Position numbers and translations under genes: made by a program
Assembly: GCF_000971235.1 (NCBI RefSeq)
Contig: NZ_BBMB01000011.1
Span: 128,547-192,546 of the forward strand
Source of the DNA: Demequina subtropica
Lineage (GTDB): Bacteria > Actinomycetota > Actinomycetes > Actinomycetales > Demequinaceae
Direction of reading: 5' to 3'
Length of the DNA stretch: 64,000 nucleotides
Notes under the pieces: model-generated
Seen by the model: the letters and a program-made list of their open reading frames with translations, nothing else
Database searches by the model: none
What the model was told of the DNA's origin: nothing
Shown: positions 30,961 to 59,057 of the stretch, one piece after another
Position numbering within the stretch: position 1 is the first letter of the stretch
Layout: the number at the start of each line of letters is the position of its first letter

Positions 30961-32058
30961 ATGCTCGATGCGCACCTTCCCGACCTGCCTGCAGCCCGCC
31001 CCGCGATCGCCGCCCTCCCCGCCTACGTGCCGGGCGCGCGCGGAGCCGCCGACGCCGCCCCGCCGGTGAAGCTGTCCTCCAACGAGAGCCCCGACGCGCC
31101 CCTGCCCTCGGTGGTCGAGGTGCTCGAGGGCGCGGCGCGCGGGATCAACCGCTACCCGGACATGGGCGCGACGGACCTCACCGCCCGGATCGCGCGCGAG
31201 GTCGGCCGCGAGGCGTCCGAGGTGGTCGTGGGTGCCGGCTCGGTCGCGGTGCTCGCGCACATCCTCCAGGCCTACACCGGGCCGGGCGACGAGGTCATGT
31301 TCGCGTGGCGCTCGTTCGAGGCCTACCCGATCCTGGCGCGCATCGCCGGTGCCGAGCCCGTCATGGTGCCGCTCACGGCGGAGGCCCGCCACGACCTCGG
31401 CGCGATGGCCGCCGCGGTGACCTCGCACACGCGCGTCATCATGCTGTGCTCGCCGAACAACCCGACCGGCCCGACGCTCAGCCAGGCCGAGCTCGACGCG
31501 TTCATGGCGTCGGTGCCGTCGCGCGTGCTCGTGGTCCTCGACGAGGCCTACCTCGAGTACGTGCGCGCCGAGGACGTCGCGGACGGCCCCGCCTCGCTCG
31601 ACCGGTACCCGAACCTGGTGCTGCTGCGCACGTTCTCGAAGGCCTACGGCCTCGCGGGCCTGCGCGTCGGCTACGCCGTGGGCCCCGCCGCGCTCATCGC
31701 GCCGGTGCGCGCCTGCGTCACCCCGTTCTCCGTGTCCGGCCCGGCGCAGATCGCGGCGATCGCCTCGCTCGACGCGCGCGACGAGCTCGAGGAGCGCGCC
31801 GCGCGCGTGGTCGCCGAGCGCACCCGCGTGGTCGAGGCGCTGCGCGCCGACGGCCGGGACGTCCCCGACGCCCAGGGCAACTTCGTGTGGCTCGCGGTGG
31901 GCGACGCCACGGCGGACCTCGCGGGACACCTCGGCAGCGCCGACCCGGCCGTGCTGGTGCGCCCGTTCGTGGGCGAGGGCGTGCGCGTCACCATCGGCGC
32001 CCCTGCCGAGAACGACGCGTTCCTCGCGCGCCTCGCCACGTGGGAGCGCCCGGCGTGA
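30961..32058 (+). CDS. HisC/Pat-type aminotransferase
   Basis: The 365-residue PLP enzyme has KLSSNESPDAPLPSV, CSPNNPTGPTL, VLDEAYLEYV and the PLP-lysine motif TFSKAYGLAGLRVGYAVG. These are typical of histidinol-phosphate transaminases and their aromatic-amino-acid paralogues (Pat). No other his genes are near, so Pat-like transamination of aromatic amino acids is at least as likely. The next glycosyltransferase starts inside its stop codon (GTGA), so it belongs to the same transcript as the surface-glycan genes. That could be accidental or could mean a sugar-precursor role, though its sequence is of the histidinol-phosphate class. Confidence 0.88.
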   Translation: MLDAHLPDLPAARPAIAALPAYVPGARGAADAAPPVKLSSNESPDAPLPSVVEVLEGAARGINRYPDMGATDLTARIAREVGREASEVVVGAGSVAVLAHILQAYTGPGDEVMFAWRSFEAYPILARIAGAEPVMVPLTAEARHDLGAMAAAVTSHTRVIMLCSPNNPTGPTLSQAELDAFMASVPSRVLVVLDEAYLEYVRAEDVADGPASLDRYPNLVLLRTFSKAYGLAGLRVGYAVGPAALIAPVRACVTPFSVSGPAQIAAIASLDARDELEERAARVVAERTRVVEALRADGRDVPDAQGNFVWLAVGDATADLAGHLGSADPAVLVRPFVGEGVRVTIGAPAENDAFLARLATWERPA

Positions 32059-33092
32059 CCCCCGCATCGTCCGTGGCGCCGCTGCGCGCCTCGTTCGTCA
32101 TGCCCGTGCTGAACGAGGAGGACTACGTCGCGACCGCCGTCGCGAGCGTGCTCGCGCAGGACGGCCTGGACGAGCGCGAGCTGCTGCTGGTGCTCGGCGC
32201 GTCGACGGACCGGACGGACGAGGTGGTCGCGGGGCTCGCCGCCGCGCACCCCGAGATCCGCGTGCTGCACAACCCCCGCAACGCGATCTCGATGTCGATG
32301 AACATCGGCATCACGGAGGCGCGCTTCCCCGTGGTGGTCCGCGTCGACGCGCACTCGGTGCTGCCGCCCGGCTACGCGGTCACCGCGCTGCGCTCGCTGC
32401 GCACGTCGGGCGCGGTCAACCTGGGCGGACGCATGCACGCCGAGGGGCTGACGCGCTACGAGCAGGCGGTGGCCTGGGGCTACAACTCGCCCGGCGGGCT
32501 GGGCGGCGCCGTCTATCACACGGGGGGCGAGGCGGGCCCCGCGGAGTCCGCCTACCTGGGCGTCTTCGACCGCGCGGCCGTGCTCGCGATCGGCGGCTTC
32601 GACGAGTCCCTCTCGCGCGGCGAGGACTGGGACCTCAACCGCCGCCTCATCGCGCGCGGCGGGCTCGTGTGGTTCGAGCCGGCGCTCGACGTCATCTACC
32701 GCCCGCGCTCGTCGGTCCGCGCGCTCGCCAAGCAGTTCCACGCGTCCGGACGCTGGCGCGGGGAGATCATCCGCCGCCTCAAGGGACGCGTCCCCGTGCG
32801 GTACTACGTGCCGCCGGTGCTGGTCGCGGGGCTCGCCTTCGGTGCCGCGCTGGTGCTGGCCGGCGCGATCACCGGAGGCGCCGCCGGCATCGTCCTGGCC
32901 GGGATCGGCCTGCTCCCAGCGCTCGTGTACGGCGCCTGGGTGGCCCTCACCGCGCTGCGCGCGGACGTCCCCGGACCCGTGCGCCTGCGGCTGCTCGGCG
33001 TGCTTCCCACGATGCACCTGTCTTGGGGTGTCGGATGCCTCTTGGGTATCCTCATGCCGAGCAGGGGGCACAACGCCTTCGCAGGACGTTGA
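32055..33092 (+). CDS. family 2 glycosyltransferase with C-terminal membrane segments
   Basis: The 345-residue protein has a GT-A domain (residues 10-255): FVMPVLNEEDYVATAVASVLAQ, RVDAHSVLPPGYA (DxD-like site) and GEDWDLNRRLIARGG. Two or three hydrophobic segments follow (about 265-325). This resembles ExoA-type enzymes that extend lipid-linked sugars at the inner membrane face. The GTG start overlaps the hisC-like stop, and the ABC exporter permease follows 22 bp downstream, so it likely adds a sugar to the exported glycan. Donor and acceptor are unknown. Confidence 0.88.
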   Translation: MTPASSVAPLRASFVMPVLNEEDYVATAVASVLAQDGLDERELLLVLGASTDRTDEVVAGLAAAHPEIRVLHNPRNAISMSMNIGITEARFPVVVRVDAHSVLPPGYAVTALRSLRTSGAVNLGGRMHAEGLTRYEQAVAWGYNSPGGLGGAVYHTGGEAGPAESAYLGVFDRAAVLAIGGFDESLSRGEDWDLNRRLIARGGLVWFEPALDVIYRPRSSVRALAKQFHASGRWRGEIIRRLKGRVPVRYYVPPVLVAGLAFGAALVLAGAITGGAAGIVLAGIGLLPALVYGAWVALTALRADVPGPVRLRLLGVLPTMHLSWGVGCLLGILMPSRGHNAFAGR

Positions 33093-33114
33093 GGCATCCA
33101 CCCCGAGGAGACGT

Positions 33115-33972
33115 GTGACCGACATCGACTACCCCGCGCTGGCGCGGGAGGCGGGACTCAAGCGCGTCGGTGAGCGTCCGCCGCTGGGCGCCTACGTCGC
33201 CGAGGCCTGGCGCCGCCGCGACTTCGCGTACACGATTGCGAAGTACCGTATCCAGGCGAAGCTGGGCCAGCACTACCTGGGACTCGCCTGGGTGGTGCTG
33301 CAGCCGATCCTCACCGCGGCGATGTACGGCCTGGTGTTCGGCATCATCATGCCGAGCGACTCGCGTCCGGACAACTTCGTCCCGTTCCTGGTCGCGGGAA
33401 TCTTCATCTTCCAGTACTTCTCGCACAACTTCCTGGCCGGCGCCCGGACCGTGCGCGGCGATGCGGGGCTGGTGCAGAGCCTGAGCTTCCCGCGCATCCT
33501 GCTGCCGCTATCGCTCGTCATCGAGAACACGCTGCTGCTCATCCCGCAGATGGCCGTGATGCTCATCATCCTCGTCGCGTTCGGCGAACCGATCACGTGG
33601 GCCTGGCTGCTGCTGCCCGTGCCGCTCGCGATCATGTCCCTGTTCTGCCTCGGGGTCGCGCAGATCAGCGCGCGTGCCGCGTTCAAGATCCCGGACCTCC
33701 TGAACGTCTTCCAGACGTTCAACCGCCTCGTCTTCTACGGCTCGGGCATCTTCTACTCGCTCGACCTCGTGCTCGCTGACCAGCCGAAGCTGCTGTTCCT
33801 CGTGCAGTTCAATCCGGTGCACGACTACATCTCGATCGTCCGCGGGCTAGTCGTCTCGGGCAATCCGATGTTCACCATCCAGTGGGTGATCGCGATCGCG
33901 GCGGCCGTCGTGACGCTCGTCGGAGGCACCATCTACTTCTGGCTCGCGGAGGAGGACTACGGAAATGTCTGA
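33115..33972 (+). CDS. Wzm-type polysaccharide ABC exporter, permease
   Basis: The 285-residue protein has the ABC-2 fold with six membrane segments and the typical N-terminal amphipathic region RDFAYTIAKYRIQAKLGQHYLGLAWVVLQPI, as in Wzm, TagG and KpsM. It forms the channel for export of a lipid-linked polysaccharide. The GTG start follows CGAGGAG. It overlaps the ATPase gene by 8 bases. Its position among nonulosonate and glycosyltransferase genes marks the locus as a surface-glycan cluster. Confidence 0.9.
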   Translation: MTDIDYPALAREAGLKRVGERPPLGAYVAEAWRRRDFAYTIAKYRIQAKLGQHYLGLAWVVLQPILTAAMYGLVFGIIMPSDSRPDNFVPFLVAGIFIFQYFSHNFLAGARTVRGDAGLVQSLSFPRILLPLSLVIENTLLLIPQMAVMLIILVAFGEPITWAWLLLPVPLAIMSLFCLGVAQISARAAFKIPDLLNVFQTFNRLVFYGSGIFYSLDLVLADQPKLLFLVQFNPVHDYISIVRGLVVSGNPMFTIQWVIAIAAAVVTLVGGTIYFWLAEEDYGNV

Positions 33973-34720
33973 AGCCTCCCCGTCGAGGCCGCTCGGTCCG
34001 CCCACCGTCGTGGTCGACAACCTCCACATCAAGTACCGCACGTTCGCATCGGGCAAGGCGCAGAGCTCGCGCACCTCGTTCGCGACGCGCTCGCGCGGCG
34101 GCACGCGCTGGGTGCACGCGCTCAAGGGCGTCTCGTTCGTCGCCTATGAGGGCGAGTCGATCGGCGTGATCGGCTCGAACGGCTCGGGCAAGTCCTCGCT
34201 CATGCGGGCGATCGCGGGTCTCAACCCGCCGGCGGAGGGCGCGGTCTACGCCGCCTCGCAGCCCGCGATGCTGGGCGTCGGCTCGGCACTCATGCCCGGG
34301 CTCGCGGGCTCGAAGAACGTTATGCTCGGCGCGCTCGCGCTCGGCCTCTCGCCGCGCGACGTGCGCGAGAAATACGACGGGATCGTCGAATACGCGGAGA
34401 TCGGCGACGCGATCGACCGCCCGATGAAGACCTACTCGTCGGGCATGAAGTCGCGCCTGCGCTTCTCGATCGCGATGGCCCGCGAGCACCAGATCCTGCT
34501 GGTCGACGAGGCTCTCGCAGTGGGCGACAAGGGCTTCCGTAAGAAGAGCGAGCAGAGCATCCGCGACCTCCGTGACACCGCGGGCACGGTGTTCTTGGTG
34601 AGCCACTCGATGAAGTCCATCCGCGACACCTCGACGCGCGTGATCTGGATCGAGAAGGGTCACCTCGTCATGGACGGCGACCCCGAAGAGGTGTGCTCGG
34701 CCTACGAGGCGTCGGAGTAG
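33965..34720 (+). CDS. Wzt/TagH-type polysaccharide ABC exporter, ATPase
   Basis: The 251-residue ATPase has Walker A (GSNGSGKSS), the exporter-type signature YSSGMKSRLRFSIAMA, Walker B (ILLVDEALAVGD) and the switch His in VSHSMKS. It lacks the extra C-terminal carbohydrate-binding domain seen in O-antigen Wzt proteins that recognise a chain terminus, so it resembles TagH/KpsT types that export without such a cap signal. It drives the permease encoded just upstream. The next gene starts 5 bases after its stop. Confidence 0.92.
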   Translation: MSEASPSRPLGPPTVVVDNLHIKYRTFASGKAQSSRTSFATRSRGGTRWVHALKGVSFVAYEGESIGVIGSNGSGKSSLMRAIAGLNPPAEGAVYAASQPAMLGVGSALMPGLAGSKNVMLGALALGLSPRDVREKYDGIVEYAEIGDAIDRPMKTYSSGMKSRLRFSIAMAREHQILLVDEALAVGDKGFRKKSEQSIRDLRDTAGTVFLVSHSMKSIRDTSTRVIWIEKGHLVMDGDPEEVCSAYEASE

Positions 34721-34725
34721 CGCGC

Positions 34726-35682
34726 GTGGCATCGTCCGGGGATGCGCGCGTCGCCTGGGTCGAGTCGCCGCTCCAGCTCCTCAACGCGATCGAGTGGGCG
34801 GCTGCGACCGGCGAGCCGCTCGACATCATGGCGCGCGCGGGACTGGTGCAGCTCGATCGCACGGTAGCCGCGCTCGTCGGGCATCTGCCGGCCGGCGTGA
34901 CCATCGACTTGAGCGCGGGCTCGGCGGTCAACCCACGCATGCGGGGTGCGCACTCCTGGCTCCTGGGTGACGTCTACTCGGGACAGGTGAAGGCGATGCT
35001 CGCCGCGACCGGCGTGCGCGACACCGTGATCGTGGACGACGGCTCCGCCGCGACCTCGATGGCCGATGCGCTGGCGGCGCGTGCAGCGCTCAGCCGTCCG
35101 GGCGTCGCGGAGGGGCTCGGGCATCGTGCCCTGGGGTTGGCCGGCTCGGCGCGCCTGGCCGCGGCGGCCCGCCGCGGGCGGGTGGGCTTCTTCACCGCGT
35201 ACCCCGACGCGCCAGGGTTCGTCGCGCTCGCCGCGGCCGGGGCTGACGTGCGCCGCAACGCCTACGCATGGACCCGCGCCACCCGACCCGTCGATGCGGT
35301 CTACGCGGAGCACGTTGTCGTGGGCACCGCCCTCATCGCGGACGGACATGTGAGCCGCGACGCCTATCGGGAATGGCTCACCGGACACGCGGACCCGTCC
35401 ACGGTGTACATTCCGCACCGACGTGAGGATGCGGAGCTCGCGCTCATCGCGGACCTGGGCCTGACGGTCCTGCCGGTGGACGTGCCGATCGAGATCGCGC
35501 TCGCCGGCTCGCCCACCGTCCGCCGGGTGTCGACGCTGCCGTCGAGCGTGGTCGCGACGTTGAGGGTGATCCTGGACCCGGAGGTCGAACTCGACGTGGA
35601 GGTCATCCCGTCACGCTGGTGGGAGCCGGGCGTCGATCCGCGCTTGCGGGCGATGCTCGAGGCGCTCGCCGAGGACCGCTGA
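34726..35682 (+). CDS. candidate sialyltransferase (GT52/polysialyltransferase-like)
   Basis: The 318-residue protein begins with WVESPLQLLNAIEWA, close to the N-terminus of GT52-type sialyltransferases. It carries the three short motifs described for bacterial sialyltransferases in the right order: D/E-D/E-G as VIVDDGS (Asp104-Asp105-Gly106), an HP-like motif as YIPHRRED (His231, with Arg instead of Pro), and a Ser/Thr motif as STLPSSV (Ser269, Ser273, Ser274). The location between the exporter and the nonulosonate synthesis genes fits transfer of a CMP-activated nonulosonate. The donor and linkage are unknown, and the Arg at the HP position is unusual. Confidence 0.6.
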   Translation: MASSGDARVAWVESPLQLLNAIEWAAATGEPLDIMARAGLVQLDRTVAALVGHLPAGVTIDLSAGSAVNPRMRGAHSWLLGDVYSGQVKAMLAATGVRDTVIVDDGSAATSMADALAARAALSRPGVAEGLGHRALGLAGSARLAAAARRGRVGFFTAYPDAPGFVALAAAGADVRRNAYAWTRATRPVDAVYAEHVVVGTALIADGHVSRDAYREWLTGHADPSTVYIPHRREDAELALIADLGLTVLPVDVPIEIALAGSPTVRRVSTLPSSVVATLRVILDPEVELDVEVIPSRWWEPGVDPRLRAMLEALAEDR

Positions 35683-35721
35683 GCGGCGCGTCCCTGACTG
35701 CCATGAGATTCTGAGGAGACG

Positions 35722-37683
35722 ATGACCGACCGACCGACCGCCGTCCCGCCGGGGACGCGCATCCTGCACGTGGGGATGCACAAGACGGCCACGACGGTGA
35801 TCCAGAACGCCGCACGCGCCCATCGGGACGATATGTGGCGCCACGGCGCCTGGTATCCGGGCCACGGCAAGGACCACATCGACGAGACGCGCGCGCTGTG
35901 GCAGGACTCGGCGAGCGCCGAGGTCGAGGAGGCCAACGAGGATCGCTGGCAGGACTTCGCCGCAGAGCTGTCCCGCAATCCCGACCGCCGCACCCTCGTG
36001 AGCGCCGAGCACCTCGCGGGCCTGTCCGAGGCGAACCGCCGCCGCCTGGTGGCCGCCGCCGGCGGGGAGCCCCACATCGTCATCACCGCACGCCCGCTCG
36101 CCGCGATGCTCCCGTCGATCTGGCAGCAGATCGTCAAGGAGCGCCGCGAGGTGAGCTTCGAGACCTGGCTCGAGAAGATCTTCGCCGAGCCGCGCAAGCG
36201 CCACTTCGTGCGGGCGTTCTGGCAGCGGCACGACCTGGGCGCGCTCGCGGAGGGCTGGGCGCGGGTCACGTCGCCCGACCGGGTCACGATCGTCATGCTC
36301 GACAAGCGCCGACCGCAGCTGCTCTACGACGCCTTCGAGGGCTTCCTCGGGATGCCTGAGGGCTCGCTCGTGACCGAGGGGCTCGACGCCTACCGGTCGA
36401 ACCGCGGCCTGTCTGTCGAGGAGGTCGACCTGCTCCGCCGCGTCAACCGTCAGCTCGACGGCGCCGCGAACGCGGGCGGCCACTACTACCGGCTGGTCCG
36501 CAACGGCATGGTCGGCGGGATGCAGCTCTGCCGTCGGCCGGGGCCGGAGGAGGGCGTGCTTGCCGTTCCCGAGCGCTTCATGGACCTCGCGACCGACGCC
36601 GCGCGCGACGCGATCGCCCAGATTCGAGCGACCGGCGTCCGCGTGATCGGGGACCTCGACACGTACGCCGAGCCGTCGAGGCCCGCGACGGTCGAGACGT
36701 TCGAGCCGCGCGACATCGGCACCGACGTGCTCGTCGAGGCGCTCGCCGGCATCGTCGCGTCGTCGACGCGCAGCGGCGTGGGCTTCGAGCGGGCGCCGAT
36801 GCGGGAGGGCGCCGAGCGTTTCGTCGGGGCGAAGGCCCAGGCGGTGCCGATCGAGCCGCATGACGGCACGGTGACGCTCACCTTCGGAGGCGCCCCGGAT
36901 GCGGTCGCGACCGCCGCTGATGCCGTGGCGGCCGTCGGCGACGCCGCGGCGGTCGCAATCGCGCTGCCGCATCTGTCCGACGAGGTCTTCGGCGCGTGGG
37001 AGCACGCGCTTGCACGCGGCGAGGAGCGACCCTTCGATGCGTGGCTCGCGTGGGCGGCGTCGCGTGAGGCGTGGGGCGCTCGCGGAGCGCTCGCGGACCC
37101 CGGGGCGCTCGCGTCCGTGGTCGCGGCGCTGCGCGACGCACGGCCGGACGCGGACGTCAGCGTGGGGCTCGTGCCCGAGGACGGTGGCTGCCTCCCCGGC
37201 CCGGTCGCGTCCGTGCTCGGCCGCGTGGGTGCGCGCTCGGCCCGTCGCGGCATCGCGGTCGACGAGTATGAGGAGCTGATCGCGGGCGCGCTCGCGTCGC
37301 TCAAGGCCGGCGATGGCGGTCGCAGCCCGCTGACCGAGCCGCTGACCGGAGGGTTGCTCGAGGACTACCGCGCCGCCCGTGGCGCGGCCCTCGCGCAGCT
37401 GCCCGACGGGCTCATGCCCGAGGAGGGTCAGGCCTGGGCGAAGCAGCAGGCGGTCATGCCGACCGAGGTCCCTACTGAGCGGATCCGCACGGTCGCGGCG
37501 GCGAGCCTGTGCGTCGGCGCGATCCTCGCGTCGCGTGACGCCTACGAGGCCGCGCATCGTCATCCCGACGATGCGCTCGCCGCCAGCGCCGCCCCCGGTG
37601 CCGCGCGACCGCGGTCCGTGCCGCAGCCGTCGCGGCTGCCGAGCCCGATCCGGCGCCTGCTGCGCGCGACCAGAGGACGATGA
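35722..37683 (+). CDS. large sulfotransferase-like protein
   Basis: The 653-residue protein has a sulfotransferase-like N-terminal half. ILHVGMHKTATTVIQNA (residues 14-30) matches the PAPS 5'-phosphosulfate loop of sulfotransferases (hydrophobic-H-x-G-x-x-K-T-A-T-T). VITARPLAAMLPSIWQQ (Arg and Ser) would be the 3'-phosphate site. The gene at 47435-48709 shares both motifs and the WQQ context. The C-terminal half (about residues 340-620) is Ala-rich, has no second PAPS loop, and I do not recognise it. GAGGAG precedes the ATG. It lies directly upstream of the cytidylyltransferase, so a nonulosonate-containing glycan is a plausible acceptor. Confidence 0.6.
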   Translation: MTDRPTAVPPGTRILHVGMHKTATTVIQNAARAHRDDMWRHGAWYPGHGKDHIDETRALWQDSASAEVEEANEDRWQDFAAELSRNPDRRTLVSAEHLAGLSEANRRRLVAAAGGEPHIVITARPLAAMLPSIWQQIVKERREVSFETWLEKIFAEPRKRHFVRAFWQRHDLGALAEGWARVTSPDRVTIVMLDKRRPQLLYDAFEGFLGMPEGSLVTEGLDAYRSNRGLSVEEVDLLRRVNRQLDGAANAGGHYYRLVRNGMVGGMQLCRRPGPEEGVLAVPERFMDLATDAARDAIAQIRATGVRVIGDLDTYAEPSRPATVETFEPRDIGTDVLVEALAGIVASSTRSGVGFERAPMREGAERFVGAKAQAVPIEPHDGTVTLTFGGAPDAVATAADAVAAVGDAAAVAIALPHLSDEVFGAWEHALARGEERPFDAWLAWAASREAWGARGALADPGALASVVAALRDARPDADVSVGLVPEDGGCLPGPVASVLGRVGARSARRGIAVDEYEELIAGALASLKAGDGGRSPLTEPLTGGLLEDYRAARGAALAQLPDGLMPEEGQAWAKQQAVMPTEVPTERIRTVAAASLCVGAILASRDAYEAAHRHPDDALAASAAPGAARPRSVPQPSRLPSPIRRLLRATRGR

Positions 37684-37717
37684 GCCACGGCGCGCACGCG
37701 CCCGCGAGAGGAGAACG

Positions 37718-38899
37718 ATGAGCGAGACGAAGCCCCAGGTGGTCGCGGTGATTCCTGCGCGCGGCGGGTCGAAGGGCGTGCCCGGCAAGAACGTCGCGCC
37801 GGTGGGCGGTGTGCCGCTGATCGGCCGCGCGATCCGTGCCGCGCTCGCGGCCGGCAACGTCGACCGCGTCTACGTCAGCACGGACGATGCGGCGATCGCC
37901 GCCGTCGCCGCCGCCCACGGGGCCGCCGTGGTCGAGCGTCCCGCGGAGATCGCGGGCGACACCGCGAGCTCGGAGGACGCGCTGCTGCATGCGCTCGACG
38001 CGATCACCGACGGCGGGCAGGACCCCCGGATCCTGGTCTTCATGCAGGCGACGTCCCCGTTCATCGACCCGACGGCGATCCGCGACGCCGTCGATCGCGT
38101 GCGCGAGGGCGAGGAGGACGTGGTCTTCTCCGCGTTCGAGACGTATGCGTTCCTGTGGCGCCGCGGCGAGGCCGGTGCCGAAGGTGTCAACCACGACCAC
38201 TCGTTCCGACCGCGTCGCCAGGACCGCGAGCCGCACTACCAGGAGACGGGCGCGTTCTACGTGCTCGACGTCGCGGGCTTCCGCGCCTCGCGCTTCCGCT
38301 TCTTCGGGCGCGTCGGCATCGCCCAGGTGGACGCGGCGACGGCCGTCGAGATCGATGAGCCTCGCGAGCTCGAGCTGTCGCGCGCGCTCGCGCCGTTCCT
38401 CGACGCCCCCGAGCCGATCGCGGCGAAGGCCCTGGTGATGGACTTCGACGGGGTCCACACCGAGGACCTCGTGACCGTCGACCAGGACGGGAAGGAGGCC
38501 GTGACCGTGAGCCGTTCCGACGGCATGGGCATCGGCCTGCTCCGCGCCGCGGGGGTGCCCATGCTGATCCTGTCCAAGGAGCGCAACCCGGTGGTGACCG
38601 CACGTGGCGCGAAGCTGCGTGTCGAGGTCCGCCAGGGCATCGACGACAAGGTCGCGGTGCTGCACGCATGGTGCGAGGAGCAGGGCCTCGACCCGGCGGA
38701 TGTCGCCTATGTGGGCAACGACGTGAACGATGCGGGCCCGCTCGCCGCCGTCGGGTGGCCGGTCGTGGTGCCGGATGCGCACCCCGCGGTCGCCGGCCTG
38801 GCGAGGATCCGGCTCACCACGCCTGGCGGGCGCGGAGCGTTGCGCGAGCTCGCGGATCGCATCCTCGCGGCGGACCCAGCGGGATCTCCCGCGCGCTGA
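37718..38899 (+). CDS. neuA: acylneuraminate cytidylyltransferase fused to a KdsC-like HAD phosphatase
   Basis: Residues 1-230 are a nonulosonate CMP-transferase: VVAVIPARGGSKGVPGKNV (CTP site), VYVSTDDAAIAAVA, VFMQATSPFI and EPHYQETGAFYV. Residues 235-390 are a HAD domain of the KdsC/CMAS type, with MDFDGVHTED (Asp242, Asp244), SKERNPVV and VGNDVND as catalytic motifs. All are intact, so the phosphatase may be active. A NeuA-HAD fusion implies that a 9-phosphate intermediate may be removed before or after activation. AGAGGAG precedes the ATG. It lies just upstream of neuB. The sugar could be Neu5Ac, KDN or another nonulosonate. Confidence 0.85.
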   Translation: MSETKPQVVAVIPARGGSKGVPGKNVAPVGGVPLIGRAIRAALAAGNVDRVYVSTDDAAIAAVAAAHGAAVVERPAEIAGDTASSEDALLHALDAITDGGQDPRILVFMQATSPFIDPTAIRDAVDRVREGEEDVVFSAFETYAFLWRRGEAGAEGVNHDHSFRPRRQDREPHYQETGAFYVLDVAGFRASRFRFFGRVGIAQVDAATAVEIDEPRELELSRALAPFLDAPEPIAAKALVMDFDGVHTEDLVTVDQDGKEAVTVSRSDGMGIGLLRAAGVPMLILSKERNPVVTARGAKLRVEVRQGIDDKVAVLHAWCEEQGLDPADVAYVGNDVNDAGPLAAVGWPVVVPDAHPAVAGLARIRLTTPGGRGALRELADRILAADPAGSPAR

Positions 38900-38937
38900 G
38901 ACCCCGCTACCGCACGTAGGCTTGCCTCCGAGGGGCC

Positions 38938-42311: not shown

Positions 42312-42313
42312 GG

Positions 42314-51537: not shown

Positions 51538-51552
51538 CAGGGCACCATGATA
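51532..51552. promoter_or_regulatory. symmetric divergent leaderless promoter/operator
   Basis: TATCAT (51532-51537) and ATGATA (51547-51552) are an inverted repeat around 9 bases. Each arm contains the start codon of one gene and, on the other strand, a -10-like TATCAT 9 nt before the other start codon. The start codons are 9 bp apart, so both mRNAs would begin at or near the start codon or inside the opposing gene. No -35 hexamer is clear. Confidence 0.5.
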
Positions 51553-53274
51553 GGCATCTCGACTCAGCGCTCGGCCCGTCCCGGAGCCGGCGGAGGGCCT
51601 GTCGAGGAACCCCTCATCTCGGTCATCGTCCCGACCTACAACGTGGCCGGGTGGATCGACGACCTGATGCGCAGCGTGCTGCGGCAGACGCACGGCCACC
51701 TCGAGGTGATCGCGATCGACGATCACTCGACGGATGGGACGTTCGAGACGCTCGAGCACTACGCCGCCGAGGACCCTCGGGTCCGCGTGATGCGCAACCC
51801 TGGTCGTGGAGGGGGTGCCGCGCGCAATGCCGGGGTGGCCGAGGCGAGCGGCGCGTATCTCGCGTTCGCGGACGGCGACGACATCGTCCCCCATGACGCG
51901 TACGCGACGATGCTGGACAGGCTCGAGGGCTCGGGCAGCGACATGGCCGTGGGCAACTTCGCGGTGTTCGGCCCGTCGCACCTCCGCACGCGCAGCAGGT
52001 CGGTGCCCACCTACGACGCGCCGCTGTCGCACGCCACGGTGGGCGAGGTCCCGTCGCTCCTGCGCGACCGCGTGTGCTGGAACAAGCTCTACCGGGCCGA
52101 TTGGTGGCGCTGGAACGGCATCGAGTTCTCGACGTCGCGCCGCTCGAACGACATCTACGCCGGGACCCTCGCGTACGCGTGTGCGCAGGTCGAGATCCTC
52201 ACCGAGGCGGTCTACGTGTACCGCCAGCGTGTCGGGGGCTCCTCGATGACATCGTCCAAGACGAGCGCGCCGTCGATGCTCGACCACTTCCGTGAGGAGC
52301 GCAAGTGCGCCGCCGCGGTGGCCACCATGAGCGCGCCGGCCGTGGCGTACTACTACGAGAACGTTCTGCGATTCGACTCGTGGGCGCACCTTCAGGGCCT
52401 GTGGGCGGCGCCGGAGGGTGAACCCGCCCCTGAGGTCTCCGAGATCCTCGAGATCATCCGCGGGCTGGTCGACGCGGCCCCTGAGGAGACGTTCGCGGGG
52501 CTGAAGAAGGCGCAACGGTGGGTGTATCGGCTGATTTCCGGCGGGGCGGTCGAGCTGCTGCGCTTCGGCCAGGCGGCGTCGGTGAGCGAGTTCTACCTGC
52601 TCACCATGACGGATCCCGACGGCTGGGACGCGGTGGACCAGGCGCTCGGGGACGACGCCGCGGAGTTCTTTGCGTACGTGATCCAGGACGAGCTCCCCGA
52701 GCTCATGCTGGAGACCGCCCAGTCGGGTGACGGGATCGAGGCGCTGATCGAGGCGATCGCGGCCGCGGATTGCCGCTACGGGCTCGCGCGACGCAGCGGA
52801 CCACTCGGTGGGGAGATCATCCGTTCCGCGCACGCCTGCCACGTCGAGGACTCGCTCGCGCTGGCCGCCGTGCAGCGCCGACGCGCGAGCATCGTGGTGA
52901 CCCGCGCCTCCGCCACGCACGTCGAGCTCGACGTGCTTCCCGTCGACGCGACCTTCGTGCTGCGCCACGAGGGCGGCGCGACCGTGGCCCCCATCGCGGG
53001 CGCGGCGGGCCGGCTCGAGATCGATGTCGAGCGGCTGGAGCCGGGCACGTGGAGGCTGCTCGCGACCGTCGCGCTGTCAGACCGCGTGGTCGAGTACCGT
53101 CCCCGTCTCAAGTCGCGTGACACGCCCAAGGTCGCGGGCGACCGCTTCCGCGTGATCGAGGGACGCCACGGCGCGATCGATGTCGAGGTCCCGCGTGAGC
53201 CCGGCACGCTCGAGGTCCTCGGACGTCGTGCCCGCAGGGCCGCCGGCGACCTGCGCCGCCGCCTTCGCGGCTAG
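51547..53274 (+). CDS. family 2 glycosyltransferase with C-terminal extension
   Basis: The 575-residue protein has a GT-A domain (residues 22-250): ISVIVPTYNVAGWIDDLMRSVL, VIAIDDHSTDGTFETLEHYA and GAYLAFADGDDIVPHDAY (DGDD metal site). A mixed helical part (about 250-420) and a beta-rich C-terminal region (about 430-560, with ASIVVTRASATHVELDVLPVD) follow; I do not recognise the latter. The last residues are Arg-rich (GDLRRRLRG). No other start codon lies between ATG 51547 and the domain, so the short divergent gap is real. It probably extends the surface glycan. Confidence 0.85.
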   Translation: MIGISTQRSARPGAGGGPVEEPLISVIVPTYNVAGWIDDLMRSVLRQTHGHLEVIAIDDHSTDGTFETLEHYAAEDPRVRVMRNPGRGGGAARNAGVAEASGAYLAFADGDDIVPHDAYATMLDRLEGSGSDMAVGNFAVFGPSHLRTRSRSVPTYDAPLSHATVGEVPSLLRDRVCWNKLYRADWWRWNGIEFSTSRRSNDIYAGTLAYACAQVEILTEAVYVYRQRVGGSSMTSSKTSAPSMLDHFREERKCAAAVATMSAPAVAYYYENVLRFDSWAHLQGLWAAPEGEPAPEVSEILEIIRGLVDAAPEETFAGLKKAQRWVYRLISGGAVELLRFGQAASVSEFYLLTMTDPDGWDAVDQALGDDAAEFFAYVIQDELPELMLETAQSGDGIEALIEAIAAADCRYGLARRSGPLGGEIIRSAHACHVEDSLALAAVQRRRASIVVTRASATHVELDVLPVDATFVLRHEGGATVAPIAGAAGRLEIDVERLEPGTWRLLATVALSDRVVEYRPRLKSRDTPKVAGDRFRVIEGRHGAIDVEVPREPGTLEVLGRRARRAAGDLRRRLRG

Positions 53275-53313
53275 CGGCGCCCGGGCCGGGCCCTCGCCCC
53301 CTCGACCGGGCCG

Positions 53314-53958
53314 TCAGAGGTGGAACGGCGGCTCGTAGCCGAGGACGCGGTAGTCCTCGCGGTAGAAGTTGGACACCAGCTGCTTCACGCGGTCGGAGAT
53401 CTCGATGTCGGCGCTGCGCACGTTCGCGATCTTGCTGCTCTCGAGCGAGTGCTTGATGTCGGTGGGGACGTCGAAGCCGGTCGCCGCGCGGAGTCGCTCC
53501 ATCGCCGTGCCCAGGCCGTCCTCGAACTTGTGGACGTGCGCGAGCGGGTGCAGGTACTCGACCTGCGGACGCATGTGGTTGTCGAGCACCCACGGGTTCG
53601 CGATCGCGCGACGGAGCGTCTTCTCGGCCCAGACCTCGAGCGCAGCCGCCGAGGTGTCGACCGTCTTGTCGTTGCGCATCGACCAGATGAAGTCCGACAC
53701 GAACCGGCGCAGCGGGTCGCGCACCACGGTGAAGATGGCGTCGAAGCGTTCGAACATGAGCCAGCTCTCAAGGACCTCGGTGTGGAAGTGCTGCGGACTC
53801 ACGCGGCGCACCCAGTTGGGGTTCGCCTTGCCGGAACGGCCGTCGCGAAGCTCGGTATTCCAGCCCGCCGCCTCGAACGCCCGCTCGATCGACGTGCCAC
53901 CGGTCTTGGGGATGTGCAGGAACAGGACCGACGTGTCGCCGGTGCGGAAGATGGGCAT
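53314..53958 (-). CDS. sulfotransferase (family 2 type)
   Basis: The 214-residue protein starts with TSVLFLHIPKTGGTSIERAF (Lys18-Thr22), the canonical PAPS 5'-phosphosulfate loop of heparan-type sulfotransferases. FTVVRDPLRRFVSDFIWSM (Arg and Ser) is the 3'-phosphate motif. QVEYLHPLAHVHKFEDGL lies at the expected late core position. This is the clearest sulfotransferase of the window, and at this length it is a compact core. It follows cysC by 97 bp on the same strand and is the last gene of the PAPS operon, so it should use PAPS made by its neighbours. The acceptor is probably the surface glycan. Confidence 0.85.
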   Translation of the reverse strand: MPIFRTGDTSVLFLHIPKTGGTSIERAFEAAGWNTELRDGRSGKANPNWVRRVSPQHFHTEVLESWLMFERFDAIFTVVRDPLRRFVSDFIWSMRNDKTVDTSAAALEVWAEKTLRRAIANPWVLDNHMRPQVEYLHPLAHVHKFEDGLGTAMERLRAATGFDVPTDIKHSLESSKIANVRSADIEISDRVKQLVSNFYREDYRVLGYEPPFHL

Positions 53959-54055: not shown

Positions 54056-55165
54056 TCAGATCATGTAGCTGGGCTCGGCATGGAGCACCGCGCGCAGCAC
54101 GGCCTCCGCGGCGTCCTCCACGCTCTCGTCGCGGTCGCCGACCACGACGTCGGCATCGGCGGGCGCCTCGTAGGGGTCGGAGATGCCCGTGAACTCCTTG
54201 ATCTCGCCGGCACGCGCCTTCGCGTAGAGGCCCTTGCGGTCGCGGGCCTCGCACACCTCGAGGGGCGTCGCGACGTGCACGAGCACGAACCGGCCGTGCT
54301 CCTCGGCCATGGCGCGCATCTCGGCGCGCATCGTCTCGTACGGCGCGATGGGCGCGCACACCGCGATGCCGCCGTGGGCCGCGAGCTGGGCCGCGACCCA
54401 GCCGATGCGACGCACGTTGAGCTCGCGGTCCGCGCGCGAGAAGCCGAGCCCGGAGGAGAGCATCGCGCGGACCTCGTCGCCGTCGAGCAGGGTGACGCGC
54501 TGGTGGCTCTCGGCGCGCAGGCGACGCGTGAGCTGACGCGCGATGGTCGACTTGCCCGAGCCCGACAGCCCGGTGAGCAGGATCACCATGCCGGTGCCGC
54601 GCGAGCGGCCTCCGCCGCGGCGCGTGGCGACGGACGAGGCGAAGAGCACCTCCGCGAGGTGCGTGAGCAGCGCGTCCGCATCGTCGCCGACCAGGTGCGC
54701 GGCCGCGGGCCGCGGCAGCACGCGGACCTCGCGCGAGGCGCGCGTCGCGGCACCGACGGCGCGCGACAGGGACTCGGCGTCGCCGGAGTCGACCAGCACC
54801 AGGTCGCCGTCGCGGTCGCTCACGTCGTTGCCGAGCGACAGCGTGACGTGGTCGAGCAGCGGCAGGCCCGCGGAGGGACGATGCTCGGCGAAGGGCGCCG
54901 TCGCAGGCTCGCGCAGCATCGTCACCTCGCCGGCGACCCAGGTCCCCGCCGAGGTGGTGTGCGACTCGCGGACGTCGACCCGGGCGATGGGGGTCGCCTC
55001 GGTGTCGAGCAGCTCGATGCTCGCCGGCACGGCGATGTCGGAGACGCGAAGGGTCGCGACATGGGCGTCGCGCGTGGGGAGCTGGTAGCGGACGTCGGCG
55101 CCGTAGGCGCCCGCGCGCATGAGCTCGAGCTCGTTGAGCTGGGGTCGGGTCAGTCGCAGCTGCAC
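54056..55165 (-). CDS. cysC: adenylylsulfate kinase with N-terminal ATP-sulfurylase-like PUA domain
   Basis: The 369-residue protein has a C-terminal APS kinase (residues about 190-365): LLTGLSGSGKSTIARQL (P-loop about 199-207), LLDGDEVRAMLSSGLGFSRADRELNVRRIG, APYETMRAEMRA and KARAGEIKEFTGISDPYEAP. These are the normal APS-kinase motifs. Residues 1-185 start RLTRPQLNELELMRAGAYGADVRY, similar to the PUA-like N-terminus of ATP sulfurylases, but no HxGH-type catalytic motifs follow. The domain may be regulatory or structural. The enzyme phosphorylates APS to PAPS. It starts 1 bp after tauE. Confidence 0.9.
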   Translation of the reverse strand: MQLRLTRPQLNELELMRAGAYGADVRYQLPTRDAHVATLRVSDIAVPASIELLDTEATPIARVDVRESHTTSAGTWVAGEVTMLREPATAPFAEHRPSAGLPLLDHVTLSLGNDVSDRDGDLVLVDSGDAESLSRAVGAATRASREVRVLPRPAAAHLVGDDADALLTHLAEVLFASSVATRRGGGRSRGTGMVILLTGLSGSGKSTIARQLTRRLRAESHQRVTLLDGDEVRAMLSSGLGFSRADRELNVRRIGWVAAQLAAHGGIAVCAPIAPYETMRAEMRAMAEEHGRFVLVHVATPLEVCEARDRKGLYAKARAGEIKEFTGISDPYEAPADADVVVGDRDESVEDAAEAVLRAVLHAEPSYMI

Positions 55166-55166: not shown

Positions 55167-56147
55167 TCAGCCTTCCTTGCCGCCGGGTTCCGCCGCCTCC
55201 GCGCGCTTCGCCTGCTCCGCGGCCCTGGCGCGCTTGGCCTGCCAGATGAAGAGCGGGAAGCCCATCTGCCGGCGGATGAGCGCCCAGGCGAGCGTGCCGC
55301 CCACGAGCGCGAGCAGCAGGGCGGCGAGCGTGGCCTGGTTGGACACCCCGAGCATCTTGAGACCCGAGATGAGCAGCACCATGGCGAGGGCGCGGCGCAC
55401 GAGGCCGCCGCCCACGCGCGAGGAGAGCTGCGCGCCCAGGTACGTGCCGGGGATCGACCCGAGGATCACCGGGATGGTGACCTCCCAGTCGACGTCCCCG
55501 AACATGAGGTGCGCGATCGCGGCGGACACCACGAGCGGGACCGCCTGCACCAGGTCGGTGCCGACCAGCTGCGAGGCCTTGAGCGCGGGGTAGAGCGCCA
55601 TGAGCGCGATGATGATGAGCGAGCCCGACCCCACCGAGGTGAGGCCGACCATGACGCCGCCGATGACGCCGACGATGATGGTCGGGATCGGGCGGGGCAC
55701 CACGTCGGGGCGCTCCTTGGGGAGCGGCGCCGCCGAGCCGTCACGGGCCCGCGCACGCTCGCGCAGGCGCATGTAGGCGCGCAGCAGCAGGCCCGCGGAC
55801 GCGACGATGAGCGCGATGCCGAGCGCCTTCTTGGTGAAGGCCTCGACCGCCTCGGGGTTGCCCACCGCGTGCTGCAGCAGCACGCCGAGGAAGGCCGCTG
55901 GCACGGAGCCGTAGACGAGCAGCCGGACCAGCTGCCAGTTGACGGTCTTGTTGCGGATGTGCACCCATGAGCCGAAGGGCTTCATCGCCGCCGCCGCCAC
56001 GATGTCCGAGGACACCGCGACGGGGGCGGGGATGTTGAAGAACAGCACGAGCGTGGGCGTCATCAGCGCCCCGCCGCCCATGCCGGTGAGACCGACCACG
56101 ACGCCGATGGCGGCCGCAGCCGCCATCAGGCCGAAGCTGAAGTCCAT
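55167..56147 (-). CDS. TauE/SafE-family sulfite or sulfonate exporter
   Basis: The 326-residue membrane protein has about eight hydrophobic segments and the family repeat: AIGVVVGLTGMGGGALMTPTLVLFF in the first half and GGVMVGLTSVGSGSLIIIALMALYP in the second. It carries a basic C-terminal tail (about residues 300-326). TauE/SafE proteins move sulfite, sulfoacetate or similar anions, and in sulfate-activation operons may act on sulfate. Its ATG overlaps the cysN stop by one base (TGATG). Its job here may be to supply sulfate or relieve sulfite pressure. Confidence 0.82.
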   Translation of the reverse strand: MDFSFGLMAAAAAIGVVVGLTGMGGGALMTPTLVLFFNIPAPVAVSSDIVAAAAMKPFGSWVHIRNKTVNWQLVRLLVYGSVPAAFLGVLLQHAVGNPEAVEAFTKKALGIALIVASAGLLLRAYMRLRERARARDGSAAPLPKERPDVVPRPIPTIIVGVIGGVMVGLTSVGSGSLIIIALMALYPALKASQLVGTDLVQAVPLVVSAAIAHLMFGDVDWEVTIPVILGSIPGTYLGAQLSSRVGGGLVRRALAMVLLISGLKMLGVSNQATLAALLLALVGGTLAWALIRRQMGFPLFIWQAKRARAAEQAKRAEAAEPGGKEG

Positions 56148-57394
56148 CAGTGCTCGCGCACGAAGCCCGCGCCGACCGTACGGTTGGTCGCCTCGTCGAT
56201 CAGGATGAACGAGCCCGTGGTCCGGTTCTCCGCGTAGTCGTCGACCAGCAGCGGGCTGGTGACCCGGAGCTTGACGCGACCGATGGAGTTGAGACCCAGC
56301 TCGTGCACCTCCGCGTTGCGGTGGAGCGTGTTGACGTCGAGCTCGTACACCACGTCCTTGACCATGGCGCGTGCCATGCGGGTGGTGTGGAGGATGCCGA
56401 GCTTGCGGCCCACCATGAGCGCGTCCTGATCCATCCAGCAGATGGTCGCGTCGATGTCCTGCGTGGGCTCCGGGTGGTTGCCGGCGCGGCAGATGACGTC
56501 GCCGCGCGACACGTCGATCTCGTCCTCGAGGCGCAGCGTGACCGACATCGGCGGCGCGGCCTGCTCGAGCGGGCCGCTCGGGCCGTCGATCGCGGCGATG
56601 CGCGACGTCATGCCCGAGGGCAGCGCCATGACCTCGTCGCCGACCTTGAGGATGCCCGAGGCGACCTGGCCCGCGAAGCCGCGGTAGTCGTGGACCTCGT
56701 TGCGCATCGGCCGGATGACGTACTGGACCGGGAAGCGCGGGTCCTGCAGGTTGCGGTCGGACGCGATGTGCACGTGCTCGAGGTGGTGCATGAGCGACGC
56801 GCCGCCGTACCACGGGGTGTTCACCGAGCGCTCGACCACGTTGTCGCCGAGCAGCGCCGAGAGCGGGATCGCGGTGAGGTCCGCGATGTCGAGCTTCGCG
56901 GAGAACGCCGTGAACTCCTGGTAGATCTCGTTGAAGCGCTCCTCGGACCAGCCGACCAGGTCCATCTTGTTGACCGCGAGCACGATGTGCGGCACGCGCA
57001 GCAGCGAGGCGATGGTCGCGTGGCGACGCGACTGCTCGGTGAGGCCCTTGCGGGCGTCGACCAGGATGATCGCGAGGTCGGCGGTCGAGGCGCCGGTCAC
57101 CATGTTGCGCGTGTACTGCTGGTGGCCGGGCGTGTCCGCGATGATGAACTTGCGCTTGGGCGTCGCGAAGTAGCGGTACGCCACGTCGATGGTGATGCCC
57201 TGCTCACGCTCGGCGCGCAGGCCGTCCGTGAGGAGCGCGAGGTCCGTGTACTCGGTGCCGCGCGCCTTCGAGGCGGCCTCGACCGACTCGAGCTGGTCCT
57301 CGAAGATCGACTTGCTGTCGTAGAGCAGACGGCCGATGAGGGTGGACTTGCCGTCGTCGACCGAGCCAGCGGTCGCGAAACGGAGAAGATCCAT
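56147..57394 (-). CDS. cysN: sulfate adenylyltransferase subunit 1 (CysN)
   Basis: The 415-residue GTPase subunit has P-loop GSVDDGKSTLIGRLLYDSK, G3 ADTPGHQQYTRNM and G4 NKMDL, followed by the EF-Tu-like beta domains. With CysD it makes APS from sulfate and ATP, driven by GTP hydrolysis. It lacks a fused APS kinase, in agreement with a separate cysC. TGATG overlaps connect it to cysD upstream and tauE downstream. Confidence 0.95.
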   Translation of the reverse strand: MDLLRFATAGSVDDGKSTLIGRLLYDSKSIFEDQLESVEAASKARGTEYTDLALLTDGLRAEREQGITIDVAYRYFATPKRKFIIADTPGHQQYTRNMVTGASTADLAIILVDARKGLTEQSRRHATIASLLRVPHIVLAVNKMDLVGWSEERFNEIYQEFTAFSAKLDIADLTAIPLSALLGDNVVERSVNTPWYGGASLMHHLEHVHIASDRNLQDPRFPVQYVIRPMRNEVHDYRGFAGQVASGILKVGDEVMALPSGMTSRIAAIDGPSGPLEQAAPPMSVTLRLEDEIDVSRGDVICRAGNHPEPTQDIDATICWMDQDALMVGRKLGILHTTRMARAMVKDVVYELDVNTLHRNAEVHELGLNSIGRVKLRVTSPLLVDDYAENRTTGSFILIDEATNRTVGAGFVREH

Positions 57395-58296
57395 CAGAAG
57401 TACCCTTCCTTCTTGCGGTCCTCCATCGCGGCCTCCGACACTCGGTCGTCGCCGCGGGTGGCACCGCGCTCGGTCAGCCGCGTCGCGGCGGTCTCGGCGA
57501 TGATCTGGTCGATCGTGGCCGCGTCGGACAGCACCGCAGCGGTCAGCGTCGCGTCGCCGACGGTGCGGTAGCGCACCGTGCGACGCTCGATCATCTCGCC
57601 CTCACGCGGGCTGCAGAACTCGTTCGCGGCCATCCACATGCCGTCGCGGTGGAACACGTCGCGCTCGTGCGCGAGGTAGATCGAGGGCACCTCGATGCCG
57701 CGCGAGTTGATGTAGTCCCAGATGTCCAGCTCGGTCCAGTTGCTGAGCGGGAAGACGCGGATCGACTCGCCCATGTGGACGCGACCGTTGTAGAGGTTCC
57801 ACAGCTCGGGACGCTGGTTGCGCGGGTCCCACTGGCCGAACTCGTCGCGGAAGGAGAACACGCGCTCCTTGGCGCGGGCCTTCTCCTCGTCGCGGCGGGC
57901 GCCGCCCATGCACGCGTCGAACCTGTTCTTCTCGATGGTGTCGAGCAGCACGGGGGTCTGGATGCGGTTGCGCGAGCCGTTGGGCTCCTCACGCACGAAG
58001 CCGCGGTCGATCGCCTCCTGCACGGAGCCGACCACCAGGTTGAGGCCGTACTTCTCGACCACGCGGTCGCGGTACTCGATGACCTCGGGGAAGTTGTGGC
58101 CGGTGTCCACGTGGACGAGCGGCATGGGAAGCCGCGCCGGGGCGAAGGCCTTGAGCGCGATGTGCAGCAGCACGATCGAGTCCTTGCCGCCCGAGAACAG
58201 GAGGGCAGGGCGCTCCATCTGCGCGACGACCTCGCGCACGATGTGAATGGCCTCTGCCTCCAGCGCGTCGAGCTGGCTGAACGAGGTTGCCGTCAT
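57394..58296 (-). CDS. cysD: sulfate adenylyltransferase subunit 2 (CysD)
   Basis: The 300-residue protein has the PP-loop ATP pyrophosphatase motif LLFSGGKDSIVLLH, HVDTGHNFPEVIEYRD, RNQRPELWNLYNGRVHMGESIRVFPLSNWTELDIW and the C-terminal MEDRKKEGYF, all typical of CysD. It adenylates sulfate with CysN. The sequence resembles the sulfation/assimilation type and not a PAPS reductase, although both share the PP-loop. It overlaps cysQ and cysN by one base each. Confidence 0.96.
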   Translation of the reverse strand: MTATSFSQLDALEAEAIHIVREVVAQMERPALLFSGGKDSIVLLHIALKAFAPARLPMPLVHVDTGHNFPEVIEYRDRVVEKYGLNLVVGSVQEAIDRGFVREEPNGSRNRIQTPVLLDTIEKNRFDACMGGARRDEEKARAKERVFSFRDEFGQWDPRNQRPELWNLYNGRVHMGESIRVFPLSNWTELDIWDYINSRGIEVPSIYLAHERDVFHRDGMWMAANEFCSPREGEMIERRTVRYRTVGDATLTAAVLSDAATIDQIIAETAATRLTERGATRGDDRVSEAAMEDRKKEGYF

Positions 58297-59057
58297 CAAG
58301 AGTCTCCGTCGGTGTTCTCGGCGATCGCCGCGAGGATGCGCGGCGCCAGGCCCGGACGGCACGCGACCAGGTCCGGGAGGTACGGGTCCGGGCCATTGTA
58401 GAGGAGCGGCGAGCCGTCGACGCGGGACGTGAACAGGCCCGCGGCCCGGGCGAGCGCGATGGGGGCGGCCGAGTCCCACTGGTACTGGCCGCCGGCGTGG
58501 ACGTAGGCGTCCACCTGTCCGCGGACCACCGCGGCGATCTTGACGCCTGCGGAGCCCATGGGGAGCAGCTCGGCATCGAGCGCGGCGCGGACGGGCTCGG
58601 TGACCGCCGGCGGGCGCGAGCGCGACACCGCGAGGCGCACCGGCGCATCGTCCGCCGCCTCGGGGGCGGGGGCGACGGTCGCGGACGAGAGCACGAGCTC
58701 CTCGCCGGGGATCCCGACGACGCCGAGCGTGAGCTCACCCTTCTCCCACAGCGCGATGTGGACCGCCCAGTCGGCGCGTCCCTCGGAGTACTCCCGCGTG
58801 CCGTCGAGCGGGTCGATGATCCAGACGCGGTCGGCGCTGAGGCGGGCCTCGGAGTCCTTGGCCTCCTCGCTCAGCACCGCGTCGTCCGGCCGGTGCTCGG
58901 TGAGCAGGCCCGCGAGCAGCGCCTGAGCGGCCGCGTCGCCTGCGTTCCCCAGCTCCTTGCCCTCGAGCCCGGACTCCCGGCGGACGCGGAGGAGCTCGTC
59001 CCCCGCGGCGCGCGCGAGCAGCTCGCCAAGAGCCGCATCGGTCAGCGCGTCAGTCAT
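58296..59057 (-). CDS. cysQ: 3'(2'),5'-bisphosphate nucleotidase (CysQ)
   Basis: The 253-residue enzyme is of the inositol monophosphatase fold: SEEAKDSEARL, IIDPLDGTREYSEGRADWAVHIAL and GSAGVKIAAVVRGQVDAYVHAGGQYQWDSAAP. DPLDGT is the metal-binding core. CysQ removes the 3'-phosphate of PAP, the product inhibitor of sulfotransferases, and can also act on PAPS. Being first in the cysQ-D-N-tauE-cysC-sulfotransferase operon fits PAPS use by sulfotransferases. ATG 59057 follows GGAGGACCG. Confidence 0.92.
   Translation of the reverse strand: MTDALTDAALGELLARAAGDELLRVRRESGLEGKELGNAGDAAAQALLAGLLTEHRPDDAVLSEEAKDSEARLSADRVWIIDPLDGTREYSEGRADWAVHIALWEKGELTLGVVGIPGEELVLSSATVAPAPEAADDAPVRLAVSRSRPPAVTEPVRAALDAELLPMGSAGVKIAAVVRGQVDAYVHAGGQYQWDSAAPIALARAAGLFTSRVDGSPLLYNGPDPYLPDLVACRPGLAPRILAAIAENTDGDS

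Follow-up and report, generated by a model that had tools for sequence, protein, structure and literature searches.

A probable locus for a sulfated, Kdn-containing surface glycan in the actinobacterium Demequina subtropica

Do genes for a sialic-acid-like sugar and genes for sulfation, lying side by side in one Gram-positive bacterium, serve a single surface polymer? The question is raised by a 64,000-nucleotide stretch of Demequina subtropica (assembly GCF_000971235.1, 3.08 Mb in 23 contigs; contig NZ_BBMB01000011.1), which was analysed whole and is called the window here. Between positions 32040 and 59057 it carries 22 called genes, open-reading-frame calls whose starts were picked by codon score and are therefore approximate. 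These encode a Wzm/Wzt exporter, a NeuB-type nonulosonate synthase, a CMP-transferase/phosphatase fusion, three sialyltransferase-like proteins, five other glycosyltransferases, three sulfotransferases, and an operon for 3'-phosphoadenosine 5'-phosphosulfate (PAPS). With a probability of roughly 0.72, we read this block as a locus for the biosynthesis, sulfation and export of an anionic glycan of the teichulosonic-acid type that contains 3-deoxy-D-glycero-D-galacto-non-2-ulosonic acid (Kdn). The reading draws on gene content, two predicted folds, the co-occurrence of the parts in related genomes and a search in which no epimerase or PseG gene was detected; the acceptor and the position of the sulfate are what we infer from these.

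In the proposed pathway, NeuB would condense mannose-6-phosphate with phosphoenolpyruvate to Kdn-9-phosphate, as the protein families and the missing alternatives suggest, and the two halves of the fusion would then remove the phosphate and make CMP-Kdn, respectively. Chain assembly would take place in the cytoplasm, with Kdn added by the sialyltransferase-like proteins and neutral sugars by the remaining glycosyltransferases. PAPS would be made by CysDN and CysC, the three soluble sulfotransferases would sulfate the chain, probably before its export, and the by-product, 3'-phosphoadenosine 5'-phosphate, would be removed by CysQ. The finished chain would leave through Wzm/Wzt and presumably be fixed to the wall by a ligase encoded elsewhere.

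If the parts belong together, they should travel together, and this was examined in 47 Demequinaceae-level genomes and in 297 genomes drawn across the order. In the first set, where matches to APS kinase (adenosine 5'-phosphosulfate kinase) had to exceed 150 bits (24 of 39 genomes) and those to NeuB 500 bits (21 of 23), close NeuB was present in 21 genomes, CysC in 24 and the sulfotransferase family of the window in 14. The latter was found in 14 of the 16 genomes having both NeuB and CysC versus none of the 31 others (Fisher 3.5e-10, a value inflated by kinship), and 13 of the 14 have it no more than 10 kb from neuB. In the order set, a threshold of 180 bits for CMP-synthetase matches retained 72 of 123 genomes, and one doubtful sulfotransferase genome was set aside (G047, E 5.6e-4, model positions 290-356; 29 reduced to 28). 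The resulting counts of 28 genomes with the sulfotransferase, 54 with CysC and 72 with the fusion are lower bounds, no more than 6, 4 and 11 candidates having been scored in each genome. CysC was present in 28/28 sulfotransferase genomes versus 26/269 others (1.2e-24), and the fusion in 23/28 versus 49/269 (1.2e-11). Outside Demequinaceae (273 genomes), the figures were 19/19 versus 20/254 for CysC (8.2e-19) and 14/19 versus 45/254 for the fusion (6.1e-7); by genus, they were 11/11 versus 11/83 (1.0e-8) and 6/11 versus 12/83 (0.0056).

The idea that the parts occur independently at random thus fails, CysC accompanying the sulfotransferase in 14 of 14 genomes of the first set and in every such genome of the second. 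The sequence-only reading had proposed looking for co-occurrence within 30 kb, and the trio of sulfotransferase, CysC and fusion does lie within that distance in six genomes of three further families (G054, G072, G088 and G116 of f9, G111 of f19, G113 of f6), with just the sulfotransferase nearby in two more (G220, G284). Among 80 named fusion-bearing loci, the sulfotransferase family was found in seven, by profile in L003, L004, L005, L078 and L081 and by tblastn alone in L070 and L079. The parts are neither random nor always clustered, and the sulfotransferase occurs in a minority of Kdn-type clusters.

The genes of the block, with the matches on which their names rest, are as follows.

32040-33092, plus strand: GT2 glycosyltransferase (PF00535, E 7.6e-19)
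33115-33972, plus: Wzm-like ABC exporter permease (NF050109, E 1.4e-20, under cut-off)
34010-34720, plus: Wzt/TagH-like ABC exporter ATPase (PF00005; TagH model, E 3.5e-48, under cut-off)
34726-35682, plus: GT-B protein, candidate Kdn (sialyl-type) transferase
35722-37683, plus: sulfotransferase with a probable degenerate second sulfotransferase-like half (family profile; hhalign of the two halves)
37718-38899, plus: CMP-nonulosonate synthetase fused to a nonulosonate-9-phosphate phosphatase (PF02348, PseF, KdsC and Kdn-9-phosphate phosphatase models)
39027-39911, plus: NeuB-type nonulosonate synthase with a short C-terminus (PF03102, E 6.5e-85; nearest solved structure 6ncs, E 2.9e-46)
39971-41215, plus: DUF6716 putative glycosyltransferase, second candidate Kdn transferase (PF20471, E 7.2e-122)
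41244-42311, minus: divergent polysialyltransferase-family protein (aligned relatives match PF07388)
42314-43261, minus: GT2 glycosyltransferase (PF00535, E 1.2e-25)
43446-44633, plus: GT2-like glycosyltransferase, weak match (PF13704, E 0.0052)
44679-46724, minus: LGFP-repeat protein, probably secreted as judged by eye (PF08310, E 2.3e-12)
46763-47323, minus: small lipoprotein-like protein, named by inspection; relatives in the G021, G024 and G029 islands
47435-48688, minus: sulfotransferase (PAPS-site motifs, fold)
48706-51468, minus: two-domain glycosyltransferase, GT2 plus group 1 (PF00535, E 2.8e-29; PF13692, E 2.5e-8)
51547-53274, plus: GT2 glycosyltransferase (PF00535, E 7.7e-34)
53314-53958, minus: sulfotransferase, Sulfotransfer_2 (PF03567, E 1.2e-10, 42.4 bits, above the cut-off of 22)
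54056-55165, minus: APS kinase CysC with an N-terminal extension of about 190 residues (PF01583, E 1.9e-58)
55167-56147, minus: TauE/SafE-type transporter (PF01925, E 1.3e-46)
56147-57394, minus: CysN, ATP sulfurylase large subunit (TIGR02034, 569.4 bits, cut-off 336.1)
57394-58296, minus: CysD, ATP sulfurylase small subunit (TIGR02039, 439.8 bits, cut-off 396.6)
58296-59057, minus: CysQ-like 3'(2'),5'-bisphosphate nucleotidase (PF00459, E 4e-35; CysQ model, E 5.7e-28, under cut-off)

The block falls into a nonulosonate and export operon (32040-41215, plus strand), a mixed middle part (41244-53958) and a closely packed five-gene operon, cysQ-cysD-cysN-tauE-cysC (59057-54056, minus strand), bordered by hisC on one side and a pyruvate-dehydrogenase (PDH)-type operon on the other. 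As a member of the pathway hisC (30931-32058) was rejected, being a neighbour in loci both with and without sulfotransferases. Family models and predicted folds confirm the inventory given by the sequence-only reading, including its sialyltransferase-like proteins, put there at up to three, except that the other glycosyltransferase genes number five rather than four. The exporter is assigned at superfamily level, as Wzm and Wzt miss the curated equivalog cut-offs (73.9 of 380 and 164.3 of 320 bits). In D. soli and D. pelophila, a second Wzm/Wzt-like pair precedes the core (L002:4672-6253, L012:4768-6362).

Which nonulosonate would be made? An Epimerase_2-type enzyme is required on the routes to N-acetylneuraminic acid (Neu5Ac) and legionaminic acid, and PseG on that to pseudaminic acid. 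Neither Epimerase_2 nor PseG gave a match anywhere in the genome (PseB, PseC and PseH were not searched for); among 14 control genomes the Epimerase_2 search was positive in 11 and the PseG search in five, above its cut-off in only two. Kdn from mannose-6-phosphate is therefore the simplest product, and, judged from the families and these searches, it appears to be the likeliest. NeuB itself (294 residues) matches PF03102 with 284.9 bits against a cut-off of 22.1, aligning to the Neu5Ac-synthase model up to position 270 of 329 and to the PseI model up to 260 of 327 only. The phosphatase half of the fusion, of the HAD type, scores 90.6 bits with KdsC and 87.8 with the Kdn-9-phosphate phosphatase model NF058599 (cut-off 180), under both cut-offs. 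That the sugar is instead pseudaminic, legionaminic or N-acetylneuraminic acid would agree with the best matches of the CMP-transferase half to PseF and of NeuB to NeuB_NnaB, and is quite unlikely in a genome where neither route-specific enzyme is matched. Among named sequences, the fusion is matched best by those of Demequina species, with identities of up to 70%, and NeuB is 99% identical to that of genome G014. A metagenome-assembled contig labelled Spirochaetia (L022) carries a fusion (60%) and a NeuB (80%) as in actinobacteria; it is probably mis-binned, or else reflects transfer.

The three sulfotransferases come from two families, one being that of the 53314-53958 protein. The other (47435-48688 and 35722-37683) bears HIGxxKTGTT, with KTATT in the loop of the 35722-37683 protein, and over 24 sequences R128 is invariant and S136 conserved in at least 90%; we take these motifs to be the 5'-phosphosulfate loop and the Arg/Ser 3'-phosphate site of PAPS-dependent sulfotransferases. 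Neither protein has a Pfam match, three sulfotransferase families each matching one of the 24 members with a best E of 0.14, and the family's predicted structure has the sulfotransferase fold. The modelled member groups with heparan-sulfate sulfotransferases, at 12-14% identity to the N- and 3-O-sulfotransferases over 222-232 residues. In the long protein, the C-terminal half is probably a degenerate copy of the N-terminal one, a pseudo-domain, since the halves align with an hhalign probability of 96.6% (E 6e-10, 205 columns, 13 long proteins including that of the window). In a CysC- and NeuB-positive island without this family, a 215-residue protein (L002:16031-16678) has a start that recalls Sulfotransfer_2 proteins.

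A candidate for Kdn transfer is likewise suggested by fold. The 34726-35682 protein has no Pfam family and a predicted GT-B sialyltransferase-like structure nearest bacterial polysialyltransferases; of its 28 family members just one matches PF07388, at E 0.11. Bacterial polysialyltransferase (5wc6/5wcn) and the GT80 sialyltransferases are the closest known systems. The DUF6716 protein (39971-41215) has a counterpart in all 18 other NeuB-positive islands examined. In the alignment of the 41244-42311 family, PF07388 is matched by 17 of the 18 members (best E 3.5e-38), the exception being the protein of the window itself, and H233, P234, S279 and T280 are invariant. A connection of the 34726 family to the 41244 family was rejected when their profiles were compared (hhalign probability 1.3%). 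At E < 0.001, no PDB sequence matched the 34726 or 35722 protein, nor the profiles made for the sulfotransferases and for the 34726 and 41244 families (best 0.043, sulfotransferase 3rnl).

Does the PAPS operon belong to the glycan, or does it merely supply cysteine? CysH of this genome passes general CysH models, carries the CC...CxxC pattern and has a higher score for the APS-reductase model (214.9 bits, cut-off 235.3) than for the PAPS-reductase equivalog (158.8, cut-off 254.2), short of both cut-offs. It looks like an APS reductase, for which APS kinase would not be needed in cysteine synthesis. No cysH or sulfite reductase gene lies inside the PAPS operon (contig 13); both are on contig 20 (G000 contig 20:100429-102947). 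Among the 47 genomes CysC is absent in 23, and in 18 of these, matches of CysD size and of CysH size lie no more than 0.9 kb apart, so CysC appears dispensable for assimilation there; G005 has both CysD arrangements. That the operon serves ordinary sulfate assimilation, its place beside glycan genes being ancestral or neutral, would fit two facts. Its CysD (57394-58296) is the only one found in the genome, so this ATP sulfurylase must serve cysteine synthesis as well as the glycan; and in two relatives with CysC and without NeuB, G009 (contig 12:227081-234600) and G004 (contig 1:2797452-2811000), no more than 4 kb separates the CysC operon from the PDH genes bordering the island. The latter weakens the closeness of the operon inside Demequina as independent proof. 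Given the type of CysH, the CysC-less genomes and the presence of CysC in all 11 sulfotransferase genera, assimilation as the sole role is very unlikely. The N-terminal extension of CysC, which has no Pfam match and reaches 300 residues in L078:18124-19551, gives the impression, and only that, of a remnant ATP-sulfurylase domain.

Several observations weigh against a Kdn polymer sulfated by this locus. The product in Demequina is deduced from genes. NeuB stays under the curated cut-offs for Neu5Ac synthase and PseI (281.5 of 399.65 and 227.4 of 340.25 bits), and the CMP-transferase half does not reach that of PseF (130.1 of 205.7). The PAPS operon may owe its closeness in Demequina partly to an inherited position, older than or independent of the glycan island. 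Eight of the 24 CysC-positive genomes in the first set have neither NeuB nor this sulfotransferase family, the only one looked for genome-wide there, and Pfam showed no sulfotransferase among ten proteins close to the operon in three of the eight (G001, G004, G032) and in G030. The sulfotransferase lies 360 kb from neuB in G030; the parts are far apart in G172 and spread over different contigs in G107, G146, G159, G211 and G233. Five of the 28 sulfotransferase genomes of the order have no fusion, and 73 of the 80 named clusters have no such sulfotransferase in the stretch examined. A tree of 38 genomes drawn from sulfite reductase implies no fewer than six changes in the presence of the sulfotransferase, and in independent pairs CysC and NeuB never run counter to it; tree-aware sign tests within the genus were not significant (median p 0.5 and 0.125) and are underpowered by too few changes.

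The genomes without the fusion would also fit sulfotransferases that act on some other acceptor, such as a second glycan, a glycolipid or a secreted protein like the LGFP-repeat protein, leaving the Kdn polymer unsulfated, as would the extra glycosyltransferases and the LGFP/lipoprotein pair between the two modules. We regard this as unlikely, because one sulfotransferase gene lies inside the nonulosonate operon, between a candidate Kdn transferase and the CMP synthetase, because the family stays so close to neuB within the genus, and because sulfate and Kdn share one chain in the polymer of Promicromonospora citrea, as described in the review PMC6801904. Relatives of the LGFP-repeat protein were found by tblastn in 8 of 12 other sulfotransferase-bearing islands versus none of six without, with the G015 and G018 stretches stopping at or near contig ends; it is possible that this protein reads or trims the polymer.

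Whether a sulfated Kdn polymer would be fixed to the wall is a separate matter. Wzm/Wzt exporters serve both capsules or exopolysaccharides and wall-linked polymers, and no wall-ligase gene was recognised among the locus genes scanned, both of which would suit a loose capsule or exopolysaccharide. This is somewhat improbable in view of the literature, as the actinobacterial Kdn polymers named in the accessible parts of PMC6801904 and PMC13011467 are wall glycopolymers.

How far, then, is such a product already known? The Kdn-teichulosonic acid of P. citrea 665T carries glucose 3-sulfate and 7,9-pyruvylated Kdn (Dmitrenok 2017, as cited in the review PMC6801904). It resembles the proposed polymer in joining Kdn and ester sulfate in one actinobacterial chain, and differs in its pyruvylation, the scanned genes of the window including no pyruvyltransferase; the window, for its part, encodes three sulfotransferases drawn from two families. 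The accessible text of the review gave no gene assignment for it. Two Promicromonospora loci (L078, L081) hold neuB, a CMP synthetase, 34726-type and DUF6716 proteins, wzm/wzt, a KTGTT sulfotransferase, cysC and tauE, as in the window. L078 adds two clear and one weak pyruvyltransferase (PF04230), which are what the pyruvate of the P. citrea polymer would need, and a GT8/CST-I-like protein. No such sulfotransferase appears in the stretches examined of the genus's other two loci, L076 and L074, the latter stretch stopping 2.5 kb short of the fusion on its upstream side. Across its whole length, a protein named as P. citrea (P0055, species given without strain, compared as a protein apart from its neighbourhood) shares 77% identity with the sulfotransferase of L078, and it keeps HVGAHKTGTT. 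A Demequina island (G010, L141:10899-14419) encodes two proteins with PF04230 domains, one also with GT8, and may combine sulfation and pyruvylation as in P. citrea.

Two further clusters invite comparison. In Streptomyces coelicolor, the teichulosonic acid region SCO4873-SCO4882 (Ostash 2014, as cited by PMC13011467) makes a Kdn wall polymer, by description like the product proposed here, and sulfation is not mentioned in the part of PMC13011467 available. The wps-1 cluster of Actinoplanes missouriensis (PMC13390465) is likewise an actinomycete polysaccharide cluster, with two predicted sulfotransferases; it differs in following a Wzx/Wzy route, its accessible description mentions no nonulosonate genes, and its sulfate awaits verification by its authors. 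Among the titles and abstracts listed in a literature search, with most subscription journals outside its coverage, none reported genes for a sulfated teichulosonic acid. The product class is thus already known chemically, and the gene assignment seems new. The combination, which the sequence-only reading had called unusual, is so in that few of the named loci have the sulfotransferase, but the trio recurs in several families and the P. citrea polymer precedes it; a nonulosonate-containing, sulfated surface glycan stands as the best reading of the block.

More tentatively, and at odds that we put below even, sulfated Kdn polymers may be widespread and modular in the order searched. One recurrent kit would build them: NeuB, the CMP-synthetase/phosphatase, Kdn transferases of a new family, an operon for PAPS kinase, and heparan-type sulfotransferases without a Pfam family, of which some carry a second, inactive sulfotransferase domain. 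The several sulfotransferases of Demequina would then act on different positions, and the LGFP-repeat protein, which accompanies many of the sulfated loci, would recognise or trim the polymer.

A 2026 paper (PMC13390465) calls bacterial sulfated polysaccharides exclusively cyanobacterial in the part available, a statement with which the Promicromonospora polymer (PMC6801904) is already at odds; other titles mention sulfated exopolymers of Pontiella and, in the reference list of PMC6801904, a sulfated O-polysaccharide from Cobetia. Against that statement, the link between genes and chemistry, if confirmed, would be news to specialists. The locus connects an orphan Promicromonospora chemistry to genes, and names a Pfam-blank sulfotransferase family and a fold-supported candidate family of Kdn transferases. 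With strains that naturally have or lack the sulfotransferases in one genus, Demequina, what sulfation does in the surface polymers of Gram-positive bacteria would become directly testable.

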